Part shown: positions 15,512 to 22,560 of the stretch, piece after piece
Layout of the letters: each line of letters opens with the position of its first letter
Numbering within the stretch: the stretch's first letter is position 1
From: Candidatus Nitrosopumilus sp.
GTDB taxonomy: Archaea; Thermoproteota; Nitrososphaeria; Nitrososphaerales; Nitrosopumilaceae
Direction of reading: 5' to 3'
DNA length: 37,101 bases
NCBI GenBank assembly: GCA_028377625.1
Contig: JAONKT010000005.1
Location: forward strand, 1-37,101
Made by a program: the position numbers and the translations under genes
The notes under the pieces: model-generated
What the model was told of the DNA's origin: nothing
Database searches by the model: none
What the model saw: the letters and a program-made list of their open reading frames with translations, nothing else

Positions 15512-17176
15512 ATGGCACTAATTCAAATTTCCAATCAATCAAGTAAAAATTTAGGCAAAAAATCTACTATCAGATTTACTCAAAGTATCTGTCCTGACTG
15601 TAACATGATTTTAGACGCTGAAGTATTTGAAAGAGATAGTCAAGTTTTCATGTCAAAAGTTTGTCCAACTCACGGTGAATGTGAGGAATTATACTTTGGT
15701 TCTTACGAAATGTACAAAAAATTCAGTACTTACTGGATGGATGGCAAAGGCGCACATTCTCCAAATGTAATGATTGACAAATGTTCTTGTCCAAATAACT
15801 GTGGTTTATGTTCAAACCACTTATCTCACAGTGGATTAGCAAACATGATTGTAACTAATAGATGTGATTTAACATGTTGGTATTGTTTCTTTTATGTAAA
15901 GAAAGGCCTTGAAGGCGCTTACATGTATGAACCAGACCATACTCAAGTTAGAGGTATGATGAAAACTCTAAGAGCAGAAAGACCAATTCCAGGAAACTCT
16001 ATGCAAATTACTGGTGGTGAACCAATGCTCAGAGAAGATATTGCTGATGTTATTCAAATTATGAAAGAAGAAGGTGTTGACCATATTCAAATGAACACTA
16101 ATGGTATTAGACATGCAATGGATCCAGAAGCAGCAAGAGAAGTAAGACTTGCTGGATGTAATAACTTGTATCTTTCTTTTGATGGTGTAACTGCAAGAAC
16201 AAATCCTAAAAATCACTGGGAAATTCCATATGCTCTTGACAGTTGTAGAAAAACAGGTACTACTGTAGTATTTGTTCCAACCGTAATCAAATCAATTAAT
16301 GATCATGAATTAGGCGGAATTATCAGATATGCACAAAAGAACATGGATGTAGTTCATGCTGTTAACTTCCAACCAGTATCATTAACCGGAAGAATGGGTA
16401 AATCTGAACGTGAAAAATATAGAATTACAGTTCCTGACTGTGTTCAAAGAATTGAAGAACAAACAGATGGTCAAGTAACTGTTGACGATTGGTTCCCAGT
16501 TCCAAGTTGTATGCCATTAACTAATGTAATTGAAGCATTCTCAAGTAAACCAAAATACGAATTATCTATTCACTTTGCTTGTGGTGCAGGAACATACATC
16601 TTTGAAGATGCAGATACAAAGAAATTTGTTCCGTTAACTAAATTCTGTGATATACAAGGAATGTTAGAACTGTTTGAAGATAAATCCGAAGAAATTCGTT
16701 CTGGTAAAAACAAATACTTTACAATGCTCGAAGTTGTTAGAAAACTAAAAGGTTTTGTTGATACTAAAAAACAACCAGCAGGATTAGATTTAGCCAAAAT
16801 GTTTGGTAATATTCTTATGAAGAGATCATTTGATTCAGTTGGTTCATGGCACGTCAAAGGATTATTCCTTGGTATGATGCACTTCCAAGACAAATACAAT
16901 GAAGATTTAGAAAGATTACAAAGATGTGATATCCATTATGTTACCCCAGATCTTAGAATAGTTCCATTCTGTGCATTCAATGTAATTCCAGAATGGTACA
17001 GAGACAGAATTCAAAAGAAATATTCTATCACTGTAGAAGAATGGGAAGAGCGTGAAGGTGTAAAACTTGAAGATGGTCTATACAGAGGTCTAATGAGACG
17101 TGGAGCAGGTGATGAACTTGCCGCTGGCTGTGCAAAGAGTCAGATGTTCCATGATGCATCTCAAGCAACAATGTAA
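15512..17176 (+). CDS. Radical SAM protein of the MJ0619 family, candidate tetraether lipid (GDGT) synthase Tes
   Basis: Rubredoxin-like N-terminus CPDC...CPTHG, auxiliary-cluster motif CSCPNNCGLCSNH, radical SAM CDLTCWYC, ITGGEPMLRED. Confidence 0.75.
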   Translation: MALIQISNQSSKNLGKKSTIRFTQSICPDCNMILDAEVFERDSQVFMSKVCPTHGECEELYFGSYEMYKKFSTYWMDGKGAHSPNVMIDKCSCPNNCGLCSNHLSHSGLANMIVTNRCDLTCWYCFFYVKKGLEGAYMYEPDHTQVRGMMKTLRAERPIPGNSMQITGGEPMLREDIADVIQIMKEEGVDHIQMNTNGIRHAMDPEAAREVRLAGCNNLYLSFDGVTARTNPKNHWEIPYALDSCRKTGTTVVFVPTVIKSINDHELGGIIRYAQKNMDVVHAVNFQPVSLTGRMGKSEREKYRITVPDCVQRIEEQTDGQVTVDDWFPVPSCMPLTNVIEAFSSKPKYELSIHFACGAGTYIFEDADTKKFVPLTKFCDIQGMLELFEDKSEEIRSGKNKYFTMLEVVRKLKGFVDTKKQPAGLDLAKMFGNILMKRSFDSVGSWHVKGLFLGMMHFQDKYNEDLERLQRCDIHYVTPDLRIVPFCAFNVIPEWYRDRIQKKYSITVEEWEEREGVKLEDGLYRGLMRRGAGDELAAGCAKSQMFHDASQATM

Positions 17177-20820: not shown

Positions 20821-21879
20821 ATGGATGGAAATATTGCCATTGATTCTTCACTAAGAACTGTAGAGTGGAAAAATAATAAAGTGATAATGATTGAACAAAC
20901 AAAGCTTCCAAATGAATTAGTTTTTGTGGAATATGATGATTTTAATCAAGTTGCAAATGCTATCAAAACTTTGATAGTTAGAGGTGCTCCTGCAATCGGA
21001 GTATCTGGCGCATTTGGATTAGGGTTAGCTGCTTTACAAAGTAAGGCAACTTCAAAAGCAGAATTATTATCTGATTTAGAAGATGCAAGAAAAATTCTCT
21101 TTGCAACAAGACCAACTGCTGTAAATCTGGGTTGGGGATTAGAAAAAATTATGAACGTTGCTAAGACTGGAGAAACTGCTGAAAAAATTAGAGAAATAGT
21201 AATCTCTACTGCTAAAAAAATGGCAGATGAAGATATTGAAATTAACAAGGCTATGGGAAAAAATGGTTCAGTTCTTTTTGATGATAATGATACAATTATG
21301 ACTCATTGTAATGCAGGTGCATTAGCTACTGTAGCATATGGAACTGCACTAGGTGTAATTAGAGCAACCAGAGAAAGTGGAAAAAATGTTAAAGTAATTG
21401 CCACTGAAACAAGACCAATTCAACAAGGTTCTAGATTAACAGCTTTTGAATTAAAACATGATGGATTTGATGTTAGTTTAGTTCCTGACACTGCAGTTGG
21501 ATATTCCATGGCAAATGGATTAGTTAACAAAGTTGTAGTAGGTGCTGATAGAATTGTAAAAACTGGTCACGTTTTTAATAAAATTGGAACTTACCAAGTA
21601 GCAACAATGGCAAAACAACATGGAATTCCGTTTTATGTTGCAGCACCATTATCTACAATTGACATGCAAACAAAATCTGATGATGTAATTATTGAAATGC
21701 GAAAAGGATCTGAAGTTACAGGCATTGGTAACAACAAAACTGCACCTGATGATATTGGTGTAATCAACCCTGCCTTTGATATGACTCCTCCTGAATTAAT
21801 TGCAGGAATAATTACTGAAAAAGGCGTGGCTACAGCCCCTTATGAAGAATCTATTGCAAAATTATTCCAAGCTAATTAA
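20821..21879 (+). CDS. mtnA: S-methyl-5-thioribose-1-phosphate isomerase (aIF-2B-like family)
   Basis: RGAPAIGVSGAFGL, TRPTAVNLGWGL, MTHCNAGALATVAYGTALGV, ETRPIQQGSRLTAFEL, VGADRI motifs. Confidence 0.92.
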   Translation: MDGNIAIDSSLRTVEWKNNKVIMIEQTKLPNELVFVEYDDFNQVANAIKTLIVRGAPAIGVSGAFGLGLAALQSKATSKAELLSDLEDARKILFATRPTAVNLGWGLEKIMNVAKTGETAEKIREIVISTAKKMADEDIEINKAMGKNGSVLFDDNDTIMTHCNAGALATVAYGTALGVIRATRESGKNVKVIATETRPIQQGSRLTAFELKHDGFDVSLVPDTAVGYSMANGLVNKVVVGADRIVKTGHVFNKIGTYQVATMAKQHGIPFYVAAPLSTIDMQTKSDDVIIEMRKGSEVTGIGNNKTAPDDIGVINPAFDMTPPELIAGIITEKGVATAPYEESIAKLFQAN

Positions 21880-21918
21880 TACAAAGTTTTTATTGTTTTT
21901 CAAACTGCTGTATAAAAT

Positions 21919-22560
21919 ATGAGTACAGTTACTTCCCAAGCAATTGAGGAATCTTTGAAACAATGTATGGATCCTGAAGTTCCTCTTAATATTGTGGAAA
22001 TGGGATTAATCTATGGAATTGATGTTAAAGAAAATAATGACGTTGATATTAAAATGACAATGACAACTCAAGGTTGTCCTTTACATGAAACTTTAGTTGC
22101 TGATGCAACAAGATTTGCAAAAAAAGTTCCTGGGGTAAATAATGTCAATATTGAAATTGTATGGGAACCAGTTTGGACAATGGATAAAATGACTGAAGAA
22201 GGAAAACTCAAAATTAAAGAAATGGGAGCTGCTGGAGTAAATACTCCTGCTCCAATTAATTATGAAACTGCATTACCTCAAGGAGTTGGAAAATTAGTAC
22301 AACAAGAAGATGGTTCTATGGTTTTAGCTAATGAACATGATCAAGGATTTATGGTAAATCAAGCTATTGTTGATTTCTGGAAATCTTGTAATGGTCAACG
22401 TAAAGTGACAGATCTTGTAGAAGTATTTGCTAATCAAACAGGATTACAAAGAAATCAAGTTGAAAAAGAAGTAATGCAATTATTGCAACAACTTCGTGAT
22501 GGTGGATTAATTGCAATTGCAGGTCAACCAGACGTACCAAATGTTGAATTTAAGAAATAA
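21919..22560 (+). CDS. MIP18/DUF59 (PaaD/SufT-like) protein fused to C-terminal PqqD-like domain
   Basis: N-terminus CMDPEVPLNIVEMGLIYGIDV...MTTQGCPLHETLVAD is DUF59; C-terminus DGSMVLANEHDQGFMVNQAIVDFWKSCNGQRKVTDLVEVFANQTGLQRNQVEKEVMQLLQQLRDGGLI resembles PqqD. Confidence 0.85.
   Translation: MSTVTSQAIEESLKQCMDPEVPLNIVEMGLIYGIDVKENNDVDIKMTMTTQGCPLHETLVADATRFAKKVPGVNNVNIEIVWEPVWTMDKMTEEGKLKIKEMGAAGVNTPAPINYETALPQGVGKLVQQEDGSMVLANEHDQGFMVNQAIVDFWKSCNGQRKVTDLVEVFANQTGLQRNQVEKEVMQLLQQLRDGGLIAIAGQPDVPNVEFKK

Follow-up and report, generated by a model that had tools for sequence, protein, structure and literature searches.

The window, meaning the whole stretch of 37,101 nucleotides analysed here, comes from a Candidatus Nitrosopumilus assembly of 733 kb that is estimated to be 59% complete. 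It harbours a gene encoding a single protein in which an N-terminal DUF59 (MIP18) domain is joined to a C-terminal PqqD-like, or RRE-like, domain. The gene is preceded on the same strand by mtnA, with a TATA-like box in the gap between the two, and a radical-SAM gene is located further upstream (Table 1).

Table 1. Features of the fusion locus, and stand-alone DUF59 genes at loci of other ammonia oxidisers.
Feature	Position	Strand	Basis or remark
Tetraether lipid synthase Tes (radical SAM)	15512..17176	+	NF045702, 690 bits, cut-off 450
mtnA, methylthioribose-1-phosphate isomerase; conserved upstream neighbour	20821..21879	+	PF01008; TIGR00512 386 bits, above cut-off
TATA-like box TTTTTATT, 24 nt before fusion ATG	21887..21894	+	Conserved between mtnA and the fusion throughout the family
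DUF59-PqqD fusion protein, 213 aa, ATG start	21919..22560	+	ORF, Pfam, homologues
DUF59/PF01883 (FeS_assembly_P) domain, residues 7-78	21937..22152	+	Pfam, conservation, 3lno fold match
Linker, residues 93-124; only the tail is less conserved	22195..22290	+	Conservation
PqqD/RRE domain (PF05402), residues 135-198	22321..22512	+	Pfam, AF2, Foldseek
Strand β3 'GFMVN', residues 143-147; in RREs the leader peptide is held at this edge	22345..22359	+	AF2, conservation
Stand-alone DUF59 genes	L220:9720-10064, L222:8917-9273, L223:8876-9232, L217:12795-13118, L218:16930-17373		

Both domain assignments, which had been proposed in a sequence-only reading of this DNA, are confirmed. The first domain matches Pfam PF01883 with 64.3 bits against a cut-off of 23.5. 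The second matches PF05402 over profile positions 4-67 of 67 with 38.1 bits (E 2e-9, cut-off 23.4), a score that becomes 39.8 bits when the C-terminal part is searched alone; one fusion of family f59 falls just under this cut-off (23.2 versus 23.4 bits). In the fusions of ammonia oxidisers the DUF59 half carries a signature, CMDPE (residues 16-20), MTMTT (46-50) and GCPLH with Cys53, that is invariant or nearly so, DPE and Cys53 showing no variation. When searched against NCBIfam, the fusion reached no SufT, PaaD or PqqD-subfamily equivalog at that model's own cut-off, including TIGR02945 for the SUF-associated SufT (103.5 versus 143.4 bits) and TIGR03859 for the PqqD of PQQ biosynthesis (16.4 bits, or 18.0 for the C-terminal half alone, against a cut-off of 46). 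The protein therefore belongs to both superfamilies and to no named functional subfamily. As full-length fusions at 30-97% identity recur in many other genomes, it is not an assembly artefact.

An AlphaFold2 model was built on an alignment of 21 rows and has a mean pLDDT of 81 and a pTM of 0.47, the latter too low for the arrangement of the two domains relative to each other to be relied upon. Three predicted strands (residues 125-128, 134-137 and 143-146) are followed by three predicted helices (148-156, 163-174 and 178-194), so that residues 125-194 of the model show the βββ-ααα winged-helix order which, in the 2025 RRE-Finder update, defines an RRE (PMC12710340). Foldseek searches of the PDB match the first half to the DUF59 structure 3lno (E 3e-9, TM on target 0.84) and the second half to PqqD (5sxy, probability 1.00, TM on target 0.69) and to the leader-bound RREs TbiB1 (5v1v, 0.71) and lasso B1 (6jx3, 0.70). 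At the sequence level, too, a profile of the fusion family matches lasso and PqqD chains in the PDB (9x90_B, E 5.8e-5). According to the same update, RREs hold their peptide in a cleft between α3 and β3 (PMC12710340). In the model β3 is formed by GFMVN, the five most conserved residues of the PqqD half in ammonia-oxidiser fusions, and these residues line up with the equivalent TbiB1 strand. This hints at a peptide-binding role for the β3/α3 cleft of the fusion; a shuffle control produced an equally conserved run of five residues at some point in the domain in 20% of cases, which leaves the cleft argument no more than suggestive.

A search of 398 genomes from the phylum located full-length fusions in f1, f2 and f3, which are families of the window's order, and a more distant form of 30-34% identity in family f59; outside these four families the matches listed comprise the DUF59 half only. 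A sample of 150 genomes of the class gave carriers in 80/90 genomes of f1 (four of the 80 fusions being cut by contig ends), 5/5 of f2, 15/15 of f3 and the single genome of f67, a family grouped with the ammonia oxidisers on the strength of its tree position. The fusion is thus present in about 101 of the 111 sampled genomes of the four ammonia-oxidiser families; about 10% of the sampled f1 genomes are without it. In the same sample it was not found in family f4 (0/2 genomes), and the other matching families have DUF59 alone. Named loci among the matches listed belong to Nitrosopumilus, Nitrosopumilaceae, Cenarchaeum and Nitrososphaerales, together with archaeon 13_1_40CM_2_52_13, which is close to f59. 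The archaeal amoA gene is present in f1, f2 and f3 and absent from f4 and f59; because f59 nevertheless has the fusion, the protein cannot serve as an ammonia-oxidation marker.

A phylogeny of the DUF59 half places the ammonia-oxidiser fusions together in one clade (97/91), within which the branching follows the families. The f59 sequences fall outside it, although a single origin was not rejected when all fusions were constrained to one clade (p-AU 0.31). The simplest reading of these sequences is that the fusion was probably acquired once, anciently, in ammonia-oxidising archaea and inherited vertically, the f59 form perhaps reflecting a transfer or a second fusion event. The DUF59 relatives on 22 IMG/VR viral contigs (L195-L216) match query residues 1-99 only, the PqqD half occurring on none of them, and the plasmid matches listed are partial, low-identity hits of the DUF59/PaaD type. 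A PqqD-half profile gave no match in 194 Thermoplasmatota genomes in a search run without a positive control. An archaeal mtnA-fusion pair is also carried by a contig labelled Nitrospina sp. SP265 (L074, PBKP01000031.1), probably an archaeal contig that was misbinned.

Ammonia oxidisers possess three distinct DUF59 proteins, namely an Mrp/ApbC-like protein of ~370 residues, a stand-alone protein of ~115 residues and the fusion. Retention of the separate stand-alone form implies that the fusion has a job which plain DUF59 does not cover. At all five ammonia-oxidiser loci examined, the stand-alone gene is convergent to the sdh genes and lies beside that for the Fe-S subunit, which suggests a dedicated client.

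The sequence-only reading had cast the fusion as an Fe-S delivery adaptor for a radical SAM enzyme or another client, and had named the radical SAM protein of the window as a candidate partner. That protein is rejected in this role; it is the lipid enzyme Tes, and its gene was near the fusion, within the fetched stretch, at only three of 47 other loci (L034, L075 and L076). Nor does the radical-SAM part of the adaptor idea find support elsewhere. A maturase of the RiPP type was sought as a SPASM protein in the genome and as a radical-SAM neighbour of the fusion. SPASM radical-SAM proteins, the class usually served by PqqD proteins, score above cut-off in five of 16 fusion-bearing genomes and were not found above it in the other 11, so pairing of the fusion with this class is rejected. 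Radical-SAM genes number 13-23 per genome in ammonia oxidisers overall, and 13-17 in f1 genomes with the fusion versus 13-18 in those without; the loss of the fusion is accompanied by no loss of radical-SAM genes in this family, from which it follows that it is not a general requirement for radical-SAM proteins. No conserved neighbour with a radical-SAM motif was found at the fusion loci, and no short, precursor-like intergenic ORF within 4 kb of the fusion is common to the families, on which ground a RiPP locus with its own precursor is rejected. In a search of 29 genomes, the fusion holds the only PqqD domain above cut-off in all f1 and f59 carriers, an additional stand-alone copy of 92-106 residues occurring in f2 genomes and in one f3 genome. 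With usually a sole PqqD domain and no conserved small ORF nearby, a RiPP role is unlikely. Stand-alone PqqD-like proteins of 92-94 residues are encoded in a Nitrosocaldaceae and a Nitrososphaeraceae genome (L217:4992-5270 and L218:5895-6179); the fused-domain profile gives them 55 and 42 bits, and they look like paralogues and have no apparent radical-SAM neighbour.

The one conserved neighbour of the fusion is mtnA, which immediately precedes it in the same orientation in 41 of 52 loci and in 41 of the 44 ammonia-oxidiser loci outside one genus. The 11 loci without it in this position comprise four from the Nitrosocaldaceae genus g14, four from f59 and its relative, and three others, i.e. 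an f1 genome in which mtnA has been relocated (L043/G311) and two loci with inserts of ~0.8-1 kb; the pair is adjacent in the other Nitrosocaldaceae genus (G461). Because mtnA is the sole immediate neighbour common to f1 and f3 loci, its retention does not reflect a mere lack of rearrangement, and it favours clients or partners of the fusion in SAM-linked metabolism. The gap between the genes spans about 30-46 bp in nearly all f1 loci and 58-110 bp in f3, and in f1 it contains a conserved box, TTTTTATT or TATTTATT, ~24 nt 5' of the fusion ATG. This box suggests that the fusion has its own, probably leaderless promoter and that the two genes are probably not one transcript; despite the strong adjacency, an mtnA-fusion operon is therefore rejected. 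Among the ammonia oxidisers without the fusion that were tested, mtnA is absent in seven, represented by a distant homologue only in G180, and cut by a contig end in two. The seven lacking both genes, G203, G394, G441, G454, G473 and G459 (1.2-1.3 Mb) and G440 (1.6 Mb), have mostly small genomes, and it is possible that the pair was lost jointly and repeatedly in reduced lineages, a pattern that could arise from physical linkage alone. Conversely, mtnA is found without the fusion in f4 and in other classes. In one genome (G455:C6:84784-85830), mtnA appears to be split into three overlapping reading frames next to a fusion gene that is itself intact, through either a sequencing error or pseudogene formation.

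Of the earlier adaptor proposal, Fe-S targeting is the part that stands, as the best idea available. SufT proteins function as factors of Fe-S maturation (PMC4982691). In eukaryotes, the CIA targeting complex, of which the DUF59 protein CIA2 is a member, picks its clients through a C-terminal tripeptide (PMC10623007). By analogy with these systems, the fusion may be a single-chain Fe-S targeting factor, a proposal that we advance tentatively and at somewhat less than an even chance. Its DUF59 half would, like SufT and CIA2, handle Fe-S clusters and help to hand them from the assembly machinery to an apo-protein, whilst its RRE half would grip a short peptide strand on that client through the β3/α3 cleft, in the way that PqqD holds a leader peptide. 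The ligand of the RRE half would then be an Fe-S client protein. Against this model, no client is indicated and the sole conserved neighbour, mtnA, does not encode an Fe-S enzyme. The wider form of the proposal, in which an RRE fold, co-opted for a purpose other than peptide natural products, reads a short targeting signal on Fe-S clients and so serves as a one-chain counterpart of the CIA targeting complex, is improbable as it stands.

The neighbouring gene offers another explanation, in which MtnA and the fusion constitute a module that keeps S-adenosylmethionine chemistry going. MtnA would recycle methylthioadenosine and perhaps also the 5'-deoxyadenosine that radical-SAM enzymes leave behind, and the fusion would maintain or repair the Fe-S clusters of those enzymes or bind MtnA itself. 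The persistence of the pair across f1, f3 and one Nitrosocaldaceae genus, the joint absences with only a distant mtnA homologue in G180, and the many radical-SAM genes of ammonia oxidisers are in its favour, as is the finding that Methanocaldococcus MtnA acts in methionine salvage as well as in the 5'-deoxyadenosine pathway (PMC6302742). However, the TATA-like box makes separate transcripts probable, linked genes vanish together through assembly gaps or single deletions, the pair is unlinked in g14, f4 and other classes have mtnA but no fusion, and radical-SAM numbers are undiminished where both genes are missing, so that the module is a rather unlikely reading. A smaller probability still attaches to the idea, again drawn from analogy, that the fusion is a client-recognition or scaffold subunit for one specific archaeal Fe-S enzyme, whose tail the RRE half would bind; the sdh-linked stand-alone protein suggests separate clients for the individual DUF59 proteins and the fusion was inherited vertically as one clade, but its conserved neighbours include no Fe-S enzyme and it is also carried by f59, which has no ammonia monooxygenase.

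The remaining explanations concern the PqqD half. A role in presenting a ribosomally made peptide to a maturase, radical-SAM or otherwise, with the DUF59 half supplying clusters, would agree with the PF05402 match, the RRE fold and the minority of carriers that have SPASM proteins; yet most carriers have none above cut-off, neither a shared small ORF nor a radical-SAM gene accompanies the fusion, and its near-universal vertical inheritance is unlike that of RiPP clusters, which together make such a pathway very improbable. It is doubtful, too, that the domain has a purely structural or dimerising function, or that it offers a winged-helix interaction surface with no part in peptide binding. 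Winged-helix folds do serve many purposes, and this domain has diverged from RiPP RREs without reaching any NCBIfam equivalog cut-off, but its best structural matches are RREs and its most conserved element is β3, the peptide-holding edge.

In bacteria, a PqqD-type domain normally holds precursor peptides for antibiotic-like products. Its wide conservation here without peptide-product genes suggests that a peptide-gripper was reused to pick proteins that require Fe-S clusters. To our knowledge, client choice by Fe-S assembly factors is largely open in Bacteria and Archaea. If the targeting proposal is true, a peptide-reading domain joined to DUF59 makes this choice directly testable, and RRE domains should not automatically be read as RiPP markers. 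If it is wrong, the fusion is still a conserved protein, so far unassigned, in a group that matters to the nitrogen cycle, with a clear set of roles that it does not have.

The architecture itself is not new, and the possibility, allowed for in the sequence-only reading, that it is a long-described universal form of its family is partly borne out. DUF59-PqqD was catalogued in 2016 as SufT architecture S8 (n=2) in a survey of 1669 genomes available to October 2011 (Mashruwala et al., PMC4982691), with an identical domain order, DUF59 followed by a C-terminal PqqD. Judging by the survey date, our guess is that its two sequences were those of Nitrosopumilus maritimus and Cenarchaeum symbiosum. 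They were left unnamed and without analysis, whereas the present work addresses the extent of the fusion, its neighbour, promoter and fold, and its lack of RiPP context. Fusions of an RRE with the same DUF59 family (PF01883) are also mentioned in the 2025 RRE-Finder update, where they are flagged as unprecedented in RiPPs, the passages concerned naming neither organisms nor a function (PMC12710340); for the archaeal lineage considered here, a RiPP context is disfavoured. A literature search, partly judged from titles and abstracts, found no description of the fusion in Nitrosopumilus or Thaumarchaeota. As far as the literature searched shows, the distribution, the mtnA neighbour, the promoter and the negative tests of RiPP and radical-SAM pairing are new.

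With PqqD, TbiB1 and the lasso-peptide B1 proteins the fusion shares its fold and the position of the β3/α3 cleft, but it is joined to DUF59 and has no precursor peptide or maturase nearby. It has in common with SufT, e.g. S. aureus SufT and M. tuberculosis Rv1466, the DUF59 fold and the conserved cysteine of the GCP motif, its closest relatives of solved structure being TM0487, 3lno and Rv1466; in contrast to the fusion, SufT is without a PqqD domain, and ammonia oxidisers keep a separate stand-alone DUF59 protein besides the fusion. CIA2/MIP18 is likewise a DUF59-type subunit, acting in a complex whose clients are recognised through a short peptide. However, whilst the CIA system needs a multi-protein targeting complex and a C-terminal tripeptide, a fused RRE would suffice here.
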